Source: Bacteroidota bacterium (lineage in GTDB: Bacteria; Bacteroidota; Bacteroidia; SXHM01). Taken from it: 64,000 nt of DNA. The DNA lies in contig CANKAM010000007.1 of the NCBI GenBank assembly GCA_947479755.1, forward strand, positions 58,057 to 122,056. Direction: 5' to 3'. Below, one piece after another: positions 6,392-29,503 of the stretch. The notes under the pieces are model-generated. The model was not told the DNA's origin, made no database searches, and worked only from the letters and a program-made list of their open reading frames with translations. How positions within the stretch are numbered: the stretch's first letter is position 1; each line of letters begins with the position of its first letter. A program made the translations under genes and the position numbers.

Positions 6392-7129
6392 TTATTTACC
6401 TGACACAATCATTCTTTTTGTAATGCGTGTCTTGCCGTTGGCTATGGTATAGAAATAAGTGCCCGGAGCAAGCTTTTCAGCACTGTAATTAATGGAGTTT
6501 ACTCCGCTTACTGCATTAATCTTACTGCTGTGCACGGCTCTGCCAAGCATATCAAACACATAAAAAGTAACAGTTTCCGATGTTGGGCTGTTGAACTTAA
6601 TGGTTGTAGTGCCGCTAAAGGGGTTTGGTATGTTTTGTATCACATCAAATTTGGAGGTGTTGAGTGTTTGAATACCCACATTACCAACATATAGTGTAAA
6701 TACATCAAGTGAGTAAGGAAGCTCAACCGTATCTAAATCTAATAGACCATAAACTATTACATCAAATAGTATGGGATAAACACCTACGGTATCATTTACT
6801 GTTCCGTTAATAATAAAGCATCCCTGTGTTCCACCGGGGTAGGTGCAGGTACCCAAAGTGCTGTTGCATTGGAAGGAAAGCCCTACGGGCATTCCGGTTA
6901 TGGAAGCCAGTTTAATACTGTCAATATGAACGGTAACAACAGAAATGGTGGTATCGGTTGGAACGGTTACGGTCATAGTCTGGTTATAGGTTTCACCGGG
7001 GTTTACAATACTGTCGGGCAGCATGGGGTAAACTAATCCTACAGCATTGGGGTCGGTTGTGCATACCTGGGTAAAGCCGGTTGCCGAAACTGCGATAATA
7101 AGTAAGAGTGCGAGGTAGATTTTTTTCAT
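6392..7129 (-). CDS. T9SS type A sorting domain protein
   Basis: Signal peptide; IQNIPNPFSGTTTIKFNSP...GTYFYTI...KRMIVSGK C-terminus. Confidence 0.8.
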   Translation of the reverse strand: MKKIYLALLLIIAVSATGFTQVCTTDPNAVGLVYPMLPDSIVNPGETYNQTMTVTVPTDTTISVVTVHIDSIKLASITGMPVGLSFQCNSTLGTCTYPGGTQGCFIINGTVNDTVGVYPILFDVIVYGLLDLDTVELPYSLDVFTLYVGNVGIQTLNTSKFDVIQNIPNPFSGTTTIKFNSPTSETVTFYVFDMLGRAVHSSKINAVSGVNSINYSAEKLAPGTYFYTIANGKTRITKRMIVSGK

Positions 7130-7162
7130 TTTGGGTTTGGTTGTTTATTATTGATTTGTTCT

Positions 7163-8836
7163 TTAAATTTTTACTGCGTTTATAAAAAAATTGGTTTGGT
7201 TACCTGAAATTTTTATGCGGTATGAACCCCGTGGTATGTTGAGTTGAAGCACGTTTAACTCAAACTGCTGTTTACCCGGCTTTGTAACAGTTATGTTTTC
7301 TTCAACCAATTTTTTACCCAACAGGTCAGTCATTTCCAATTGATATATCCCTGTTTCGGTTACGGTAAACTCTATTTGTGCTGTTTCTGCAAATGGATTA
7401 GGAAAAATGTGTGCATCATTCAGCGTGTTTTGCCCCTCATTTATTGCGGCTGGGTATTGCTTGAGTATTGTAAATTGATCCTGTATAACACCACCGGCAG
7501 TTAGGTAATGCGCATCAAGGCGGTCACCATCAATATCAATAAAAAGTGAACCTAAGCAGGTGTCGCACAGTTGCATGGTAAACATTGACGCTATTTCAAC
7601 CGGGTTATAGGCGCTGTTACTGCTGCTGTTACCTGCTATTGCATAAACAGTTCCTTTTCCGGCCTGCGGCCCTGTAAGATATTTAACGTATGCCTCGCCT
7701 AAAGCATCGTTTCCGCTGGTGCCGTTAACTAACATGTCTGAAGTAAACGAGGCATTTAGTCCATAATGTCCGTTAATCAAATGGCTGCGCTGGTAGCTGT
7801 GGTCGTGTCCGTTAAGCACCAAATCAACGCCATACTTTTCAAGTATTGGGTTAAAATGCCTGCGGCTGGATTTGCAAAAGGGCGACCAATCAGTAACAAA
7901 CTGTGCTGCACTGTAAGGCATCTGATGCCAAAAGGCTATTTTCCATTTTTTGGTAGTGGCTGCAAGATCGGCTTTCAGCCATGCTATCATGGGCGAAGTA
8001 AAACTGGTATCTGAATCGGTTACCCCTAGCCAATCAAAGGTAGAATCTTGTGAGCCAATCTCTGAATTGAGTGAAATGAAGTGGATATTACCGTAATCAA
8101 ATGAATAAAATATTTTGAGGTTAGAAGGCACACCACCTAATTCACCATGTGTTGGAGGGTCAATAATATCAAGATACGGACCTGTGTGAGTGGCAGGATC
8201 TAAGGTGCAAAAATCCGGCTCCCAGGGGCAAATGCTGTTGTAATCATGATTGCCTGAGGTAGAGGCAAAAGGCAACTTTGGAAACAGATGATGATACCCG
8301 TAGATACTGTCAAATACTTTTACGGTATATTCTGAATCGGTGCCATCGTAATAAGCATTATCGCCCAACCAAAGCCAAAGGTCGGCAGGTTTGGTAGCGG
8401 CAGCGTGTTCAATATAAGATTCGCGCACCAATGCTTGTCCGTCATTTCCATGTCCCATATCACCCATAGCCCAAAGCCTTACAGGGGTAGTGGTGTTGGT
8501 ATCGGGTGCGGTGGTAAAATAATAGTTAGAATTGGTTGCCCCCAACATTGCTGCGCTACTGCCTACGTTGTAAAAATATTTGGTGTGAGGCGCAAGCGCA
8601 GTAATTTTTACGCGATGCTCGGTAGTAACATTTGCACTGTCAATAATAAAATCGGTTGAGCCCAACGTTGAACCATAATAAACGCGGCTGTCGGTAGCCA
8701 CATCTGTGCGCCAGCGCAAAATCATGCTGGTTTGTCCGGGACTTTGCAGATAGGGTCCGCGGATGAGAGTTTGAGATTGCGCCTCAGAAATTACAGCTAA
8801 AAAAAGGAAAAATAAGATAATGTGTTTCAGTTTCAT
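7163..8836 (-). CDS. Purple acid phosphatase-like metallophosphoesterase with T9SS sorting domain
   Basis: N-terminal LIRGPYLQSPGQTSMILRWRT FN3-like domain; GDMGHG, GDNAYYDG, GNHDYN, FWHQMPYS, NGHDHSYQRS; IFPNPF CTD. Confidence 0.88.
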   Translation of the reverse strand: MKLKHIILFFLFLAVISEAQSQTLIRGPYLQSPGQTSMILRWRTDVATDSRVYYGSTLGSTDFIIDSANVTTEHRVKITALAPHTKYFYNVGSSAAMLGATNSNYYFTTAPDTNTTTPVRLWAMGDMGHGNDGQALVRESYIEHAAATKPADLWLWLGDNAYYDGTDSEYTVKVFDSIYGYHHLFPKLPFASTSGNHDYNSICPWEPDFCTLDPATHTGPYLDIIDPPTHGELGGVPSNLKIFYSFDYGNIHFISLNSEIGSQDSTFDWLGVTDSDTSFTSPMIAWLKADLAATTKKWKIAFWHQMPYSAAQFVTDWSPFCKSSRRHFNPILEKYGVDLVLNGHDHSYQRSHLINGHYGLNASFTSDMLVNGTSGNDALGEAYVKYLTGPQAGKGTVYAIAGNSSSNSAYNPVEIASMFTMQLCDTCLGSLFIDIDGDRLDAHYLTAGGVIQDQFTILKQYPAAINEGQNTLNDAHIFPNPFAETAQIEFTVTETGIYQLEMTDLLGKKLVEENITVTKPGKQQFELNVLQLNIPRGSYRIKISGNQTNFFINAVKI

Positions 8837-19337: not shown

Positions 19338-20768
19338 TTACCTCGCCACCATCAGCTTATGCATAATCTGCTCACCGTTGGATGCAGTAATGCCTATGAA
19401 ATAAAACCCTGAAGGATATTCTGAAACCGAAATAGTTTCGGTGTTAAGGTCACCCGCAACAATTGCTTTGTTGTCAGCAACGTTCCGGATTAAACGACCT
19501 GAAACATCATACACACCTACTGTTACCGTAACATCATCAGTAAAGCTGTAGTTAACAGTTGCCTGTGATGAAGCAGGATTTGGGAATATAGTTGACATAG
19601 TTTCTTCGCTTAATTCAGTAAATGATTCTTCTTCGTCTGTTTTGTTAGAGCCGCATGCACCTAACACCCAACCTTGATTAAGGCGCGTAGGAACCTGTGA
19701 TGTGTTTACGCAACTAGTGCTGTTGTTCCTGCACATATATACTTTGTTACTTCCGCAACGGATATCCAGTACACGCACCTGCGCTACATCTTGTTTTACA
19801 CATCCGCGTGCATCGGTTACGGTAAGTGTGTAGTTGGTTGTTACGTTAGGGCTTACAGTAATAGAAGCAGTAGTAGCTCCGTTGCTCCACTGATAAGAAT
19901 AAGGAGGCATGCTTCCGTTTCCGCTACCCGAGAGTGTAACACTCTGTGAACCGTAACCGATGTATTTTGTTTTATCAACACCTGCATTAGCCACCGGAGG
20001 CTGGTAAACAACAACCGATTTATAATCGCTGCTTGATAAACCGTTTGCATCGGTAACAGTTAAAAGGTAAAGCTCATTGGAAGTAGGAGAAACCGTAACG
20101 TTTGCAGTTGTTCCCACAACCGCAGGAACATATTGCGCTTCCCATAAATAAGTATAGGGAGCAGTTCCACCCGATACCGTTGCGCTTAATATAGCGCTGC
20201 CACCCAGGCAATAGTAAGCAGTGTTTCCTGCATCAACAACTGGACCTGATAAGTTGATAACCATCTCAGGATTTCCGTTGCAACCGTATGGCGGAACACC
20301 AACACCTGCTGCTTCAGCACCCATAAGGGTCATGCTGGTAGGCGCACCTACAGTAACATAGGTAAAGGTAACGCAAGCCGCACCTGCAGGACCACATACA
20401 CACGTCCATGCATTAGGAAAAGGAAAGGTTGAATTAACCGGCCATGAAATAGCATCGTACACTAAAATCTCCGGACCGTAGCTGCTGTTATCAGCACCAT
20501 AAACGGCAGCAGTCTGCGGGCTGGTAAGCGAAGCCGGAAACGAAGAAAAGGTTGCACCGCCATCAAGCATAACTGCCCAAAGACCTGTTTGTCCTTCGGC
20601 ACCGCCCGTACCTCTGCCTGCGCAAAAGGTAACAGTGTATTCATGTAAACCACCGCCAAGGTCGGTATGCGAGTTAAGCGTGAACGATGAGTTATCACAC
20701 GCCTGTGAATTAAATGCGCCTGCAACTGTTAGTGCAAGGGCTGTTAAGATTGAGTAAAGTGTTTTCAT
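19338..20768 (-). CDS. T9SS type A sorting domain protein with PKD/Ig-like repeats
   Basis: MKTLYSILTALALTVAGAFNSQA signal peptide at 20768; YSYQWSNGATTASITVSPNVTTNYTLTVTDARGC; IFPNPASSQATVNYSF CTD. Confidence 0.83.
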   Translation of the reverse strand: MKTLYSILTALALTVAGAFNSQACDNSSFTLNSHTDLGGGLHEYTVTFCAGRGTGGAEGQTGLWAVMLDGGATFSSFPASLTSPQTAAVYGADNSSYGPEILVYDAISWPVNSTFPFPNAWTCVCGPAGAACVTFTYVTVGAPTSMTLMGAEAAGVGVPPYGCNGNPEMVINLSGPVVDAGNTAYYCLGGSAILSATVSGGTAPYTYLWEAQYVPAVVGTTANVTVSPTSNELYLLTVTDANGLSSSDYKSVVVYQPPVANAGVDKTKYIGYGSQSVTLSGSGNGSMPPYSYQWSNGATTASITVSPNVTTNYTLTVTDARGCVKQDVAQVRVLDIRCGSNKVYMCRNNSTSCVNTSQVPTRLNQGWVLGACGSNKTDEEESFTELSEETMSTIFPNPASSQATVNYSFTDDVTVTVGVYDVSGRLIRNVADNKAIVAGDLNTETISVSEYPSGFYFIGITASNGEQIMHKLMVAR

Positions 20769-20812: not shown

Positions 20813-20883
20813 CAAAACTACGGGGCTTGTAAGCGGTATTTTTAACGCAATGGATAGATGAAAGGCGTGTTTGTATAAGTGTA
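20813..20883 (-). promoter_or_regulatory. Conserved promoter/operator module, copy 1
   Basis: Minus strand TACACTTAT...TCCATT...TAGTTTTG; ungapped alignment with 22354..22424. Confidence 0.65.
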
Positions 20884-20934
20884 CCCGTTTTAAGAAAAGG
20901 TGTGTTTGATGTACCGATGAACGACATTGTTACC

Positions 20935-21030
20935 GTCACCCTGAACTTGTTTCAGGGTCCTTTTATCAGCACAGGCTGGCTCAATGTTCCCCAGACATTG
21001 CCCAGATGCTGAAACAAGTTCAGCATGACG
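20935..21030. repeat. BIME-like REP pair, copy d (extended spacer)
   Basis: gtcaccctgaacttgtttcagggtcc ... agatgctgaaacaagttcagcatgacg. Confidence 0.85.
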
Positions 21031-21035
21031 TTAGG

Positions 21036-21074
21036 AAACAAAAAACCGTCCGGCGCTCGCGGTACCGGACGGTT
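21036..21074 (-). terminator. Intrinsic terminator for 21120..22328
   Basis: aaccgtccgg cgctcgcggta ccggacggtt; minus strand continues into ttttttgttt. Confidence 0.88.
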
Positions 21075-21119
21075 ACTCAATCATCACCCGCCATGAAAAC
21101 GAGAGATGAACCACAAAAA

Positions 21120-22328
21120 CTAATCTTTGATTAGCCTGAGTGTCTTGCCCGAATTTAATTCAGTAATGAAATAAATGCCGGGTGCAAACTGTTCCATGTT
21201 CAGCGTTTGTTTTTGCTGAACAGGAACACTAAGCAATGTTTCGCCCAAAACAGTGCTCAATGTAAAATAACCGGGTGTTGCCGTTTCAACCGTTATGTTG
21301 CCTGATGATGGATTAGGATAAACAGAAACAGATTCAACGAAATTGTTTTCATCAACACCTACACAAGAACTTACGGTTACTATAACCGAGTCGGTATACT
21401 GTATGTTGTTATTGTCATACACGCTGGCATAAATAATATGTTCACCATCGCCCAAAACATTACCGTAAATGGAATTGGTGGCATCGTTATCACCGTTGCT
21501 CCAGTTGTAATCGCACTGCTCGCTGGGAGCGGTAACGTTTGTAAACTCATTGTCATTGCAGATAGAAATAGAACCTGCTGAAATGAAATCATAATGACTG
21601 TTGAACAATGCCCCTATCTGAATATCAACTAATGCAGCATTCCAGAAACGCAGGTCATCAATTGCTCCGTTAAAGTAGGCGTTGGTGCCGCTTCCGTTTA
21701 CACCACTTCCTATTTTACCGGCAGTACCCGAAATCATGTAATAATATAATGAGTTTCCTGATCCTGAATAAGTAACTGCATCGGCTACACCGTTTACATA
21801 TATATCAATATCGGAGAGTGAGTTAAAAACCACAGCAATGTGATACCAGCTTCCGGCAACAAGCTGCGTAGTTCCTATTGCACTTATTCTTGAGGTTGGC
21901 CCCGGAAGTCCACCGTTTCCTATACTTGCAATTACTTCACCTGTTTGCAAAAGATTAATCCATGCTCCCGAATAATACGAACCATTGTCTTCATTCATAA
22001 AAATAGGATTACGTGCTCCTATTGCGTTTGATTTAATCCATGCCGAAAATGTAAAAGGAAACTGACATTTGAATTCACCGGATATGTCATTGTAAAGGAA
22101 AACAGTTCCACTGGTGGTGTTCAATGCACTGGCGGCATTACCATGGCGGTCGGTTTCAAAGGTTGGTGTGCCGTAAACATAAATGGATTGATTGTATGCA
22201 GATGAATCAGCCGTTGAGTTCTGCATTTTTAAATCAACTACTAAGGATGTTGAACTTGCGCATTGCGAGAAGGCATTGTTGGCAAGCAACATGGTGCCTG
22301 TCATAAATAGTGTGTAGAGTTTTTTCAT
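21120..22328 (-). CDS. T9SS type A sorting domain protein with LamG/concanavalin-like domain
   Basis: FTFSAWIKSNAIGARNPIF, WYHIAVVFNSLSDIDIYVNGV, GAIDDLRFWN; VYPNPSSGNITVE CTD. Confidence 0.88.
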   Translation of the reverse strand: MKKLYTLFMTGTMLLANNAFSQCASSTSLVVDLKMQNSTADSSAYNQSIYVYGTPTFETDRHGNAASALNTTSGTVFLYNDISGEFKCQFPFTFSAWIKSNAIGARNPIFMNEDNGSYYSGAWINLLQTGEVIASIGNGGLPGPTSRISAIGTTQLVAGSWYHIAVVFNSLSDIDIYVNGVADAVTYSGSGNSLYYYMISGTAGKIGSGVNGSGTNAYFNGAIDDLRFWNAALVDIQIGALFNSHYDFISAGSISICNDNEFTNVTAPSEQCDYNWSNGDNDATNSIYGNVLGDGEHIIYASVYDNNNIQYTDSVIVTVSSCVGVDENNFVESVSVYPNPSSGNITVETATPGYFTLSTVLGETLLSVPVQQKQTLNMEQFAPGIYFITELNSGKTLRLIKD

Positions 22329-22353
22329 ATTGTGGATGAGTTTTAGTTTGAAG

Positions 22354-22424
22354 CAAAACTATCGTTATGAAGAGCTACTCTTTTATGCTAATGGAAAGGT
22401 GAGGAGAATGAATTAATAAGTGTA
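22354..22424 (-). promoter_or_regulatory. Conserved promoter/operator module, copy 2
   Basis: Minus strand TACACTTAT...TCCATT...TAGTTTTG with the same spacing as 20813..20883. Confidence 0.65.
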
Positions 22425-22456
22425 GAGAATTGCGGGAAATCTGTGATGCAGGTCAC

Positions 22457-22523
22457 GTCATGCTGAACTTGTTTCAGCATCTCTCACAAAATAAAAAGAC
22501 CCTGAAACAAGTTCAGGGTGACG
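22457..22523. repeat. BIME-like REP pair, copy e
   Basis: gtcatgctgaacttgtttcagcatct ... gaccctgaaacaagttcagggtgacg; followed by partial acttcagtatgacg. Confidence 0.9.
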
Positions 22524-22604
22524 GGACTTCAGTATGACGATTATTACCAATTAACAACCGTTGCGTCAACTATTATTACCTGTATGCCTTTTGCAAATAT
22601 CTGT

Positions 22605-23345
22605 TTACAGATTTTTCAGAAACTCAAGCAGCTTCTCGCGCTTGCGCACCGAAACGGGAATGTTGATACCGTCACTCATTTCAATGGAACCTCCATCTGT
22701 TTTATCTATGCGTGTGATGAAGTTTACATTCACCAAATGTGAATTGTGAACGCGGATAAAATGATTACCCAGCAAGTCTTCGTACTCTTTCAGGTTTTTA
22801 GAAACCATAATGCTGGGGCGGTTAACAATGTAAAACCGTGTGTAGTTTCCGTCTGCCTCACAGCGCATGATGTCGTCTAATTTAATGAGGTGTATAGACT
22901 CCATGTCTTTCAATAATATCTTGCGACTGCCGCCTGTGAGTTGTTTTAAGTTTTGTTCCAGCAACTCTAATTTTGTTCCCAGGTTTTCTTTGTCAATCTT
23001 CTCCAATGCTTTGTTCACAGCTTCTGTCAGCTCAATCGGGTCAACGGGTTTAAGCAGGTAATCAATAGCGCTGAGGCGCAATGCTTCAATGGCATATTTT
23101 GCAAAAGCAGTGATAAAGATTACTTCAAACGAGCGTTGTTCCAGTTTGCGCAAGAGGTCAAGCCCGGTGCCGTCATTCATTTCCACATCAAGGAAAACAA
23201 GGTCGGGATGCTCCGTTGCAATCAGCTTCAAACCTGTTGCAACGCCATCTGCTTCTACTATTTCAGCTTCAGGAAAATTATGTTGCAGCATCAACACAAT
23301 GCCTTTGCGCACTTCGTTTTCATTGTCTATAACTGCAAGGATCAT
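22605..23345 (-). CDS. LytTR family response regulator
   Basis: Receiver domain (VFLDVEMNDGTGLDLLR, FITAFAKYAIEALRLSAIDYLLKPVD) plus LytTR DNA-binding domain (FIRVHNSHLVNVNFI). Confidence 0.95.
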   Translation of the reverse strand: MILAVIDNENEVRKGIVLMLQHNFPEAEIVEADGVATGLKLIATEHPDLVFLDVEMNDGTGLDLLRKLEQRSFEVIFITAFAKYAIEALRLSAIDYLLKPVDPIELTEAVNKALEKIDKENLGTKLELLEQNLKQLTGGSRKILLKDMESIHLIKLDDIMRCEADGNYTRFYIVNRPSIMVSKNLKEYEDLLGNHFIRVHNSHLVNVNFITRIDKTDGGSIEMSDGINIPVSVRKREKLLEFLKNL

Positions 23346-25324
23346 ATCGGTAAGTTTATCAGCACGGTTACACCAACTCCACCGTTGGCTGTATTGTCTA
23401 TTACTTCAAAGTTCGCATTTTTCTTTTTTGTCTTTCCAAGCAACTTCAGTCGCTCCCAGGTTATATCCATTGCCCGTGATTTATGTTCACTTGGTTCTTT
23501 CTTCTCACTCAAACCTGTTCCGTTATCTTCAATTTTTATCTGCAAAGCATTATCCACTTCAGTGATAAGGATGTTGATTTTCCCTTTGCGGTCACTCAGT
23601 TCTTTAAAGCCATGTTCAACTGCGTTCTCCAGAAAAGGTTGTGTAATCATGGATGGAATCAACACATCACGCAGGTCGTCATCCATTTCAATTTCATAAT
23701 CAAAACGGTTGCCCATTCGCACCTTCTGTATCTCCAGATAATTCTCCATCAGTGTCTTTTCTTCTGCCAGACTCACCTGATTGTCAAGCGTGTTTTCCAA
23801 AATCTGTCGCATCAACTTTGATAAACGAGAGAGATAACCCGCAGCTTTGTTAGGGTAGCTCTTATCATAAAAGAAACCCTGCACCGAGCCCAGCGCATTG
23901 AACAAAAAGTGAGGATTAATCTGCGCACGATAAAACCGTTGCTTCAAATCCAGCAACTCAAATTCTTTCTTAATCCGGTAGCTGCGAAACACAAGGAATG
24001 CTATTACCAGCAACACAACAACACCAACAATTACTGACAACAACTGTATGTTGCGTTGGCGTATTAACAAGTCTTTTACTTCTGCTTCGGTGGTGATGCG
24101 TTTTATTTCTTCTTCCTTTTTTTCGGTTTCGTATTTCACCAAAAGCTGTTGCAAATTCTTTTCCGTTTCTTCTTTTTTAATAGAGTCCGAAACCGCAATA
24201 CTCTTCTCCAGCCATTCGGTTGCTTCCTTGTATTTACCAAGCCCGCAAAGCGATACATACTTCTCTTTATACACCTTTGCAAGTTTATCAACTCTGTTTT
24301 TCTTTTTCGAAAGCGCTATCAGTTCATCTTCCTTTGCAAGTGCTTCAGTGTATCTTTTCTCTCTGTTAAATGCGTAACAAAAGTTAATCAGCAAATCAAA
24401 ACGCTGCAGTTCAAAATTCAACTCGCGTGATATCTTATCCGCTTCTTCAAGGTGGGCAATAGCTTCTTTTACCTTGCCCATATCACTTTCAATTGCCGAT
24501 AAAATCGTAAGGTTATTTACCAGGCCCTCCTGATTTCCCATCTTGCGGTTCAACTCAATTCCTCTCGTCTGATAATAATAAGCTGAGTCAAAATTCTTTT
24601 CGGTGTTGTGATAAATAGCCATGTTGGCATAGCACTTGGAACTGGCCAAATCATTTTTAAGAACCAGACTCTTCTGCAAAGCCTGAAGCATGTATTTCTT
24701 TGCTTCTTTAACATCATTGATTTTAAAGTGCAGGCTTGAAATAGCAATCAATCCAGCCATTTCCGGGAAGTCTAATTTGTTTTTACGTGCAAACTCCAGC
24801 GCTTTAAGTCCATAACTCATGGCCTCGTCATTCTTATCCATGTAGTTATAGGCAGTTGACATTCCGCGCAGCAACAACTCATATATTTCTTTGTAACGTT
24901 TGTTGGCTGTGTCTTTTTCTACTTCAAGGGCTTTCAATCCCTTTTTCATATTCACAACGGCATCATCAAACTTGCTCTTCCGGTTATCAATAGAACCTTG
25001 CAGGTGATATGCTTTGGCAAACAGAATAGGTTGTTTGGCTTTTTCAGCATACTGTAAACAGATTTCAAAATGCGCGGTTGCAGAATCAATATTCACCTTC
25101 ATAAACGAAGTGCCAATCCAGTGATGCGCCTGCGACATATTACTGTAATCACCCGGCTTTACAATCGTGTTCAGCCTTTGGTAAACAAGTTTAATTGCCG
25201 AGTCGGCTTTTGTAAGATGTATCTTTTGAATGTCGCGCCACAGACTATCGCTTGGCATTTGTGCAGATGCAAAACCGGAAATTGTGAACGAAAGGATTAT
25301 TAGAATTTGTATTATCATTTTCAT
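23342..25324 (-). CDS. TPR-containing LytS-like sensor histidine kinase
   Basis: TPRs, one TM, RAQINPHFLFNALGSVQGFFYD, PSMITQPFLENAVEHGFKEL; 4-bp overlap with response regulator. Confidence 0.95.
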   Translation of the reverse strand: MKMIIQILIILSFTISGFASAQMPSDSLWRDIQKIHLTKADSAIKLVYQRLNTIVKPGDYSNMSQAHHWIGTSFMKVNIDSATAHFEICLQYAEKAKQPILFAKAYHLQGSIDNRKSKFDDAVVNMKKGLKALEVEKDTANKRYKEIYELLLRGMSTAYNYMDKNDEAMSYGLKALEFARKNKLDFPEMAGLIAISSLHFKINDVKEAKKYMLQALQKSLVLKNDLASSKCYANMAIYHNTEKNFDSAYYYQTRGIELNRKMGNQEGLVNNLTILSAIESDMGKVKEAIAHLEEADKISRELNFELQRFDLLINFCYAFNREKRYTEALAKEDELIALSKKKNRVDKLAKVYKEKYVSLCGLGKYKEATEWLEKSIAVSDSIKKEETEKNLQQLLVKYETEKKEEEIKRITTEAEVKDLLIRQRNIQLLSVIVGVVVLLVIAFLVFRSYRIKKEFELLDLKQRFYRAQINPHFLFNALGSVQGFFYDKSYPNKAAGYLSRLSKLMRQILENTLDNQVSLAEEKTLMENYLEIQKVRMGNRFDYEIEMDDDLRDVLIPSMITQPFLENAVEHGFKELSDRKGKINILITEVDNALQIKIEDNGTGLSEKKEPSEHKSRAMDITWERLKLLGKTKKKNANFEVIDNTANGGVGVTVLINLPI

Positions 25325-26596: not shown

Positions 26597-29503
26597 TTAG
26601 TCTTTTGCAATCATCATCCGTTTGGTTGCTCTTACTTCTTTATTGCTTAATGTATAGAAGTAAACTCCCGCAGGAAGATTTCCAGTAAAGAACTCGATTT
26701 TATTGAACCCTGCTGATGCCTGCACCTGACGGGTTTCTAAAAGTTTGCCTTCAATAGTAGTAACAGTAAATACATAATCACCCGGAAGGTCAGAAACAAA
26801 GTTAATCACCGTACTGCTGTTAAACGGATTAGGGATGTTTTGCAACAGATTAAAGCCTGCTGTTCCGTTTTCTTCAATGCCGTTTGGTGGCTGAGTAATT
26901 ACAACCGTAAGCGTACGTGTACAGTTTGCATCGGTAACAGTGATGGTGTAAGATCCTGCTGCTACGTTAAACAAGTCTTCAGTAGTAGCACCGTTGCTCC
27001 ACGAAAGGGTAAAAGGCTGCGATGCTCCCGTTACCTCTACATCAATAAATCCGTTGGAGCCGTCAAAGGTGGTTACGTTTTGCGCCTGAATAGAGTCAAT
27101 TGAAATGGTACAGGTCAGTTCAGGGAAACAGTTTCTGAGGTAAACAGAGTCGCGCTGACCAAAGCCTGAGCAGGTTTCAACAATGGCAGGAAACTCGCCC
27201 GGCACCGGAGGAACAACCAATTGAACCGACTCTGTTTGTCCGGGAGCTAAATCAATATTAAGCTCATCAAATGTATACACCTGATCTTCTGTAATCAGGT
27301 TACAGCTATCTGCATAGTTTATAATCTGGAATGGCGGTACAACAACCGATACAGCTCCAACGCCAATATTGGTTGCCGAAATAATCCATGTTCCGTTGGG
27401 GTCACCGGGGAAAAGTCCGGTAAGCGGAATACAAGGCAATGTTCCGCCCGGCAAAATACTAATCAATTGCTGCGTAATAACAATGTGTGTTCCGGGCAGA
27501 TACTGGTCGTTTACATTAAACGATGTTCCGTCAGGGAAAATAAACACCAGCGGGTCAAGCGCCCAGCCGCTGTCGCCTGTAATGATTGGACAAATTACCA
27601 TGCTTGGACGGCAATAGGCGGTAAGTGTATCCCAAACAACAGGTGTTATATTAGCTTCTTCTGCAATAAAAGGTGTGATGTAATACCAGCCTTCTTCCAA
27701 GCTGTCGGTAAGGTTGGCGCACTGACGCTGAACTGAATAAGATGAGTCATTCAATCCCGGGAAAATATAGCCTGCATCATTAGCTGCAGTTGCCTGTTGC
27801 TGATTGGTGACAGGACCAAAGTCTGAAGGCGTTACTGCCCATGCTACATTAAATCCGGGACTTGCCACAAATCCTTCTGAAATTACCTGAGCAAGATCAC
27901 CACAGCAAAGTGTGTCTTTAGAAACAGATGCAATGCCACCTGCTAAGCAAAGTGTAAAAGGAAATGATTCGCTTGAACAGCCTATAGGAGTTGTAAACGT
28001 TGCTGTGTAAGGTCCGGCTGTGGTTTGTCCGCCAAGGGTATTGCCGGTTGAGTCAACAACTTCAACTCCGTTATTATACCATGTTACATCATACAGTCCG
28101 CTGTTGTTGTTGGTGATTTCCAATGCGTCTATGCCCGGATTAAAAGTAATGAACGGCTGAGCAGGGTCATTTACAAATGATACACGGATTGAGTCTGCAC
28201 GGTTTAAACAGAAGTTGGTGGTGTCGGTAATCAAAAGGTTGTAATATCCTGTAGGACCGGGAACACTTACCCAGACTGCTTCGCTGTCTGAGATGAATGT
28301 TTCGCTTTGCGACCACTGGTAGGTATAAGGACCTGAACTGGTAGTAAGCAATAATGAATCACCAAGGCAAACGCTGTCGTTAGGTAATGCAATCATTGGC
28401 GGCACGGGAGGGTTTGCAAAAACGGTAATGGTATCTTGTGTCTGATAAGTGGTGTCCAGCGCTAAAGCAATGGTATAGGTTCCGAATGTTTCGGGTGTTG
28501 TGAAGTTGAATGTTCCGGGAGCAGAAACATAGGTAGGATAGTTTCCAAGATTATCATTCTGCGATGTTCCGTCCTGGTCCCAGAAGTTCAGACTGAAGGC
28601 AGGATTTTCAAGTACAAGACCAAGGTTGCTCCATGAGTTGGAAAGGTTATTGCTTCCGGCTGATGAGGTATAGTTTTGCGTTCCGTTGGTGAAAGCGAAA
28701 TACAAATCAGGCGCACCTTGACAAACTCCGAAGAGGCTTACTTCTTCAATATCACCACACCATCCTGAACCCGAAGCGGTAACAGTTACATCTGTTAATA
28801 CATAATTGTAAACGGTAGTAGTTAGGCTTGGATAATAATCACCGGGTGTGGTGTAAGATTGCACCGGAGGATTTTGCTGTGTTGAAGTATTTCCGTTGTC
28901 GAAATCCCAATCGTATTCAGTAACCTGGTTAGGTGAGAAATCAAGGTATGCCTCATAAGTAACATCTAACTCACCGCAAGCTGAAGGAGGATTGAAACCG
29001 AAATAAGGATTGCCGCCCGGAGCAGGCTCAACAATTAAAAACAACGAGAAACTTGCAGGGTTGTTAATGGTTCCTATTGGGGTAGTAACGTTTGCCACTA
29101 CCGATACCACTACGTTGTAGTTTCCGGGAACGGTGGGTGTTCCGCAGATTTTAACGCAACCGCGGCTATCCGCTGTTACAGTGTACGCGCAGCCGGGCTG
29201 GTCGCAACTGTAGGCAAGTCCCGCAGGCATACCAACGATTTGGGTAACGGTAATTCCGTTAAGGGTTACGTTCTGTCCGCTTCCCTGGTCAACAAAATTA
29301 CGGGGCATAAAAAAGGTCAGGTTCTGGTCGTAAGGCTGGTTTTGAATGGCATTGGGCAACACAGCCGGACAAAGGGTTGGCGCCACAGGGTTTATACCTA
29401 CTCCGCATTGAGTGTCAATGATGCAACCGGGGCATTGGGCGTAGGAAGTTATGAGTGATAAGTTAAGCGTTATAAGTGCAAACGCAAGTAAGAATTTCTT
29501 CAT
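26597..29503 (-). CDS. Large T9SS type A sorting domain protein with PKD and SprB-like domains
   Basis: YDWDFDNGNTSTQQNPPVQSYTTPGDYYPSL; LQNIPNPFNSSTVINFVS...GVYFYTLSNKEVRATKRMMIAKD. Confidence 0.88.
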   Translation of the reverse strand: MKKFLLAFALITLNLSLITSYAQCPGCIIDTQCGVGINPVAPTLCPAVLPNAIQNQPYDQNLTFFMPRNFVDQGSGQNVTLNGITVTQIVGMPAGLAYSCDQPGCAYTVTADSRGCVKICGTPTVPGNYNVVVSVVANVTTPIGTINNPASFSLFLIVEPAPGGNPYFGFNPPSACGELDVTYEAYLDFSPNQVTEYDWDFDNGNTSTQQNPPVQSYTTPGDYYPSLTTTVYNYVLTDVTVTASGSGWCGDIEEVSLFGVCQGAPDLYFAFTNGTQNYTSSAGSNNLSNSWSNLGLVLENPAFSLNFWDQDGTSQNDNLGNYPTYVSAPGTFNFTTPETFGTYTIALALDTTYQTQDTITVFANPPVPPMIALPNDSVCLGDSLLLTTSSGPYTYQWSQSETFISDSEAVWVSVPGPTGYYNLLITDTTNFCLNRADSIRVSFVNDPAQPFITFNPGIDALEITNNNSGLYDVTWYNNGVEVVDSTGNTLGGQTTAGPYTATFTTPIGCSSESFPFTLCLAGGIASVSKDTLCCGDLAQVISEGFVASPGFNVAWAVTPSDFGPVTNQQQATAANDAGYIFPGLNDSSYSVQRQCANLTDSLEEGWYYITPFIAEEANITPVVWDTLTAYCRPSMVICPIITGDSGWALDPLVFIFPDGTSFNVNDQYLPGTHIVITQQLISILPGGTLPCIPLTGLFPGDPNGTWIISATNIGVGAVSVVVPPFQIINYADSCNLITEDQVYTFDELNIDLAPGQTESVQLVVPPVPGEFPAIVETCSGFGQRDSVYLRNCFPELTCTISIDSIQAQNVTTFDGSNGFIDVEVTGASQPFTLSWSNGATTEDLFNVAAGSYTITVTDANCTRTLTVVITQPPNGIEENGTAGFNLLQNIPNPFNSSTVINFVSDLPGDYVFTVTTIEGKLLETRQVQASAGFNKIEFFTGNLPAGVYFYTLSNKEVRATKRMMIAKD

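Follow-up and report, generated by a model that had tools for sequence, protein, structure and literature searches.

In an uncultured Bacteroidia bacterium, what controls two neighbouring genes for predicted T9SS-exported proteins that are preceded by the same spaced sequence module and lie directly beside a LytTR response regulator and a histidine kinase? LytTR regulators are numerous in Bacteroidota. The literature searched contained no study linking them to T9SS cargo, and the papers it yielded on LytTR together with T9SS were genome descriptions and transcriptome studies only. A first-pass annotation of the window (the whole stretch of 64,000 nucleotides that was analysed) had described the pair as an orphan system, had divided the module into three separate blocks, and had offered LytTR control of the two genes as an inference.

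Repeat structure and promoter geometry of the upstream modules

The kinase and regulator genes overlap by 4 bp and, according to Pfam, have the layout of a two-component system, with a receiver plus LytTR regulator encoded together with a His_kinase-family sensor (Table 1). By eye, the kinase sequence shows an N-terminal signal-like segment and the TPR region, and what looks like a single membrane segment precedes the kinase domain, so that the signal perceived would probably be periplasmic. The C-terminal sorting domain PF18962 scored above the cutoff in both genes A and B, marginally so in gene B (27.6 vs. a cutoff of 27 bits). A third T9SS-type gene lies nearby (window positions 26597–29503; 968 aa with PKD, SprB, and sorting domain) and is 90% conserved in the genomes G002 and G003 introduced below; an operator of the kind described here was not found upstream of it.

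Table 1. Genes and putative regulatory elements of the locus, with positions in the window
Feature	Position	Strand	Description
Sensor histidine kinase	23342..25324	-	N-terminal TPR region, then His_kinase PF06580
LytTR response regulator	22605..23345	-	PF00072 (Response_reg) + PF04397 (LytTR)
Third putative operator copy	22554..22605	-	AACAGATAT-N12-TACAGGTAA-N13-AACGGTTGT, then TAATTGG; first base coincides with the end of the regulator's stop codon
Putative operator of gene B	22395..22445	-	three half-sites, 21-bp pitch
Half-sites of gene B	22437-22445; 22416-22424; 22395-22403	-	CACAGATTT; TACACTTAT; CTCACCTTT, then CCATT
-7 box of gene B	22354..22361	-	TAGTTTTG; 42 bp from proximal half-site start, as for gene A
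Predicted T9SS cargo gene B	21120..22328	-	402 aa; Laminin_G_3 + PF18962
Putative operator of gene A	20854..20904	-	three half-sites, 21-bp pitch
Half-sites of gene A	20896-20904; 20875-20883; 20854-20862	-	CACACCTTT; TACACTTAT; TTCATCTAT, then CCATT
-7 box of gene A	20813..20820	-	TAGTTTTG; 42 bp from proximal half-site start
Predicted T9SS cargo gene A	19338..20768	-	476 aa; SprB-like repeat + C-terminal sorting domain PF18962

The blocks were present at the positions and offsets reported in the first-pass annotation, with TACACTTAT and TAGTTTTG 63 bp apart upstream of both genes. Aligned without gaps, the two modules are identical at 44 of 76 positions including the -7 box and at 34 of 63 without it (binomial p ~2e-6); by ungapped identity alone they are the best pair in the window by a narrow margin (34, next 33). 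For the two-block pattern including its spacing, 100 shuffles gave an expectation of 0.00, whereas the window contains it twice, and a genome-wide search with it (3.9 Mb, up to 3 mismatches) returned exactly these two matches and none for the reversed control.

The shared module is therefore real, and it is longer than had been described: anchoring on TACACTTAT and then scanning for the same 9-mer elsewhere revealed a further half-site 21 bp upstream at both genes (the outermost half-sites in Table 1). Across eight operators from four genomes, offset -21 scored equal to the box itself and offset +21 (in some, +22) was also raised, from which it follows that each operator consists of three half-sites at a 21-bp pitch. 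Instead of three unrelated blocks, the repeat unit is thus a 9-mer that fills three slots. TCCATT had been placed correctly and was rejected as a separate element, being merely the end of the third half-site. The half-sites are imperfect 9-bp direct repeats with the approximate consensus (A/T/C)AC(A/G)(C/G)NT(A/T)T (matrix consensus AACAGTTAT), fit the broad LytTR consensus ACCACTTAT, and are degenerate in the proximal slot at both window promoters. In both window operators the pitch of 21 bp is the sum of a 9-bp half-site and a 12-bp spacer, 11–13 bp having been the range looked for. Published LytTR operators (PMC6193735) have the form ACCACTTAT-12 bp-ACCGCTTAT, in most cases with a 12-bp spacing and a distance of ~10 bp to the -35 element downstream. 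The operator copy at the regulator's stop codon, which had been overlooked, has a proximal gap of 13 bp and is followed by a hairpin repeat, and no -7 box was found behind it. One period upstream of the gene A operator, GTCGTTCAT is a weak match to a possible fourth half-site and was not counted as one.

Paired hairpin repeats (GTCACCCTGAACTTGTTTCAGGGTC ... GCTGAACTTGTTTCAGCATGACG) are located between operators and genes at window positions ~20932–21033 and 22457–22526. Their core, CTGAACTTGTTTCAG, has eight matches in the window when both strands are counted, and G003 has a similar element at another of its LytTR loci (L136), where it separates the regulator from the cargo. The hairpin repeats are a REP-like dispersed element.

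At both genes the half-sites start 42, 63, and 84 bp ahead of the -7 box TAnnTTTG. As this box is placed at -12 to -5 (PMC9723704), the half-sites would start near -54, -75, and -96 relative to the transcription start predicted from it, with the proximal pair centred near -60. Between the end of this pair and the place where, given a 17-bp spacer, a -35 element would start there are about 10 bp, which is also the most frequent distance among published LytTR operators (PMC6193735). The absence of a -33 box, from which an activator-dependent promoter had been suggested, was confirmed, neither window promoter having TTG at -33; taken alone it says little, because only 4 of the 17 TAnnTTTG sites upstream of window ORFs have TTG there. 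In their half-site length, sequence type, 12-bp spacing, and promoter position, the modules would qualify as LytTR operators.

We consider it very probable that the adjacent LytTR two-component system activates genes A and B via these modules. The TPR histidine kinase would phosphorylate the LytTR regulator, which would bind the direct repeats at their 21-bp pitch and, through contact with RNA polymerase, recruit the sigma-A enzyme to TAnnTTTG promoters that have no -33 box, thereby switching on two predicted T9SS-exported surface proteins. The earlier suggestion of LytTR control is strongly supported by features of the sequence, namely half-site type, spacing, promoter position, conservation with the regulator and the T9SS genes, and recurrence of the geometry at non-orthologous LytTR genes. 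The direction of control is unreadable from sequence, and the regulator might instead repress, its bound repeats blocking the promoters until a signal releases it. We regard repression as unlikely, however, as the half-sites keep a fixed register ahead of the core promoter, neither gene has a -33 box, and LytTR operators described at such a position activate (PMC6193735).

Conservation of the cassette with its regulator

Among 388 genomes of the class, orthologues of the regulator were identified in G002 (95% identity), G003 (91%), and G014 (88%), the next best match reaching 51%. All three are metagenome-assembled genomes; G002 and G003 share the genus of the source genome (G000), and G014 belongs to another family. 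In these three genomes and our own (four of four), an operator is located at the stop codon of the regulator. G014 has the gene order A-kinase-regulator-B, with the gene B orthologue directly after the regulator, and its stop-codon operator is gene B's own. Full-length gene A orthologues occur alongside the regulator in G003 and G014, the G014 promoter having CAACTTCG in place of TAnnTTTG. Gene B is absent from G003, and in G002 gene A is a 49-residue tail remnant and other genes follow the regulator. In surveyed genomes without the 88–95% regulator, no full-length orthologues of gene A or gene B were found. It is above all the phased 9-mers that are conserved from genome to genome. The description of the LytTR pair as an orphan system accordingly had to be given up, since conserved putative targets adjoin the regulator.

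In G002 (L033 8500-10500), small genes fill the slot behind the LytTR promoter, whose -7 box TAAGTTCG is at the expected 42 bp. None of these replacement genes had a Pfam match, and an exchange of cargo is possible.

The regulator is much more conserved than kinase or cargo. From G003 to G014, identity decreases from 91 to 88% for the regulator, from ~71 to 64% for the kinase, and from 73 to 57% for gene A, whereas the cysteinyl-tRNA synthetases of G000 and G003 are 95% and those of G000 and G014 54% identical. Because the drop within the cassette is small compared to the 54% of the tRNA synthetase, these values suggest that the cassette may have moved horizontally as one unit.

The same comparisons bear on which LytTR protein would act at these sites. 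Searched with the regulator, the source genome yields 13 matches, so that the operators could be real and yet be bound by a paralogue, or be shared by several; in addition, the regulators of G057 and of a second G014 locus (48–50%) use near-identical half-sites (AACACTTAT/AAC(A/G)GTTGT), and paralogue specificities may overlap. The action of a paralogue is nevertheless improbable: in each of the four genomes an operator begins at the stop codon of the adjacent regulator itself, and the occurrence of the T9SS genes follows this regulator and not its paralogues.

Matching sites and other LytTR loci

The putative operators were further tested out of sample. A matrix trained on G002, G003, and G014 only, with the box registers of the training set picked by eye before the tests, ranked the three window sites first to third of ~128,000 positions (scores 21.9, 21.0, and 19.5; next 17.7). 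The reciprocal matrix test recovered the sites, one of them (G014 gene B) weakly. One of 60 random-sequence controls reached a score of 21.5, so that one high score alone decides little, whereas the three highest ranks falling within 1.7 kb are decisive.

The source genome was also searched by pattern, and a triple half-site pattern was run on nine genomes. In the source genome, the sole extra match is directly upstream of a degraded gene A paralogue (G000:C2, L133 ~6970-7660; 72% identical, three in-frame stops), a copy that has kept the operator but has lost the -7 box together with the 5' part of the gene. In G014 (contig C5), the pattern matched upstream of an unlinked gene whose 1624-aa product is a subtilase carrying SprB repeats as well as a T9SS sorting domain, and the -7 box of this gene, which was not in the search pattern, is exactly 42 bp from the half-site. 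Matches to a pattern of two boxes plus the -7 box were no commoner than those of the reversed control at 2 mismatches; genome-wide prediction from this pattern is therefore weak, and it was rejected as a regulon finder.

The 21-bp pitch is also seen at other LytTR loci. Self-comparison downstream of 68 LytTR genes gave a peak of repeats only at 21 bp (27 loci vs. 2–12), and when repeated with 81 loci the 21-bp rise was present in 37%, compared to 17.5% after other ORFs. In a survey of ~77 more distant LytTR genes, with non-orthologous loci scored by the orthologue-group matrix, paired half-sites once more preferred 21 bp; as the surveyed loci are partly interrelated, p-values are optimistic and significance is overstated. 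A 21-bp half-site pair was detected at 25 non-orthologous loci, and all 12 of the -7-like boxes behind paired half-sites were at 41/42 or 62/63 bp. The half-site profile peaked at -42/-63/-84 and -41/-62/-83 from the -7 box; in the 62/63-bp class the third slot is mostly degenerate and the visible pair stands one period farther out. At the loci of G057 and G014:C23, AACACTTAT-N12-AAC(G/A)GTTGT is followed at 42 bp by TACACTTG, and the genes behind it encode LamG/T9SS proteins. A more distant pair of loci, in G001 and G003, has a different half-site, ACCGTTCATGAA, likewise at 21 bp and ahead of a LamG/T9SS protein.

The next same-strand gene had a T9SS-like end in 21 of 54 LytTR cases (odds ratio 5.7 relative to background ORFs, 40 of 398), a count that takes in related loci and thus overstates significance. 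Of 38 genes following LytTR regulators that were run against Pfam, 19 carried the sorting domain. Tandem LytTR genes were observed at L041 2709-4100, L169, and L172, the second gene being short (~161 aa) and probably without a full receiver domain.

It is conceivable that genes A and B inherited a common ancestral promoter, and the third match in the source genome, which precedes the gene A paralogue, is homologous; the similarity could then simply go back to the duplication of a T9SS promoter and say nothing about the regulator. This is very improbable given that cross-genome conservation is concentrated in the phased 9-mers, that the 21-bp pitch emerges from self-comparison at other LytTR loci, and that the unlinked and unrelated protease gene of G014 shows the same layout. 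Recent duplication as the sole cause was rejected outright, the phased 9-mers being conserved across genomes and recurring at unrelated genes. We lean slightly towards the broader view that such LytTR systems form a recurrent class in Bacteroidota, in which the regulator is followed by a three-slot operator-promoter with fixed registers (-42/-63/-84 from the -7 box) that drives the next gene, very often one for a T9SS surface protein, and whose cassettes move from lineage to lineage and swap cargo.

Relation to known regulatory systems

The HdrR/BrsR operators of Streptococcus mutans resemble the putative operators described here in that they are 9-bp direct repeats of the ACCACTTAT type with a 12-bp spacer, at a fixed distance just upstream of the core promoter. 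These systems, however, have a membrane inhibitor protein and act on their own operon and on bacteriocin genes (PMC6193735), whereas the present system consists of a two-component pair, its putative operators have three slots and adjoin a Bacteroidota promoter, and its likely targets are T9SS cargo genes downstream. AgrA of Staphylococcus aureus, acting at P2/P3, is likewise a LytTR response regulator with tandem repeats centred near -60 and a suboptimal core promoter, but has two repeats instead of three, other targets, and belongs to another phylum (PMC4227749).

PorXY-SigP (PMC4800418, PMC7712824) is also a Bacteroidota two-component system linked to type IX secretion, in which the cargo-type protein PorA appears to feed the sensor. 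PorX differs in not being a LytTR protein and in acting on the secretion machinery together with an ECF sigma factor, whereas the likely targets of the present system are individual cargo genes. PorXY-SigP controls T9SS component genes in Porphyromonas gingivalis (PMC4800418, PMC7712824), yet it is very improbable that the promoters studied here belong to SigP or another alternative sigma factor, as they have the usual sigma-A core box TAnnTTTG, the conserved blocks are too far upstream and are tandem repeats, and the adjacent regulator has a LytTR domain, unlike PorX. Where a member of the PorXY-SigP regulon would have a non-LytTR regulator and an ECF sigma-type promoter, we found a LytTR regulator and a TAnnTTTG box; the present system is not the PorXY-SigP pathway.

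For LytTR-dependent activation of genes A and B, and for LytTR systems of this kind, the registers translate into testable predictions of the controlled gene, the binding place, and the transcription start of a given system. They also suggest a second layer of control beyond PorXY-SigP, which acts on the machinery: the choice of which T9SS cargo is displayed.
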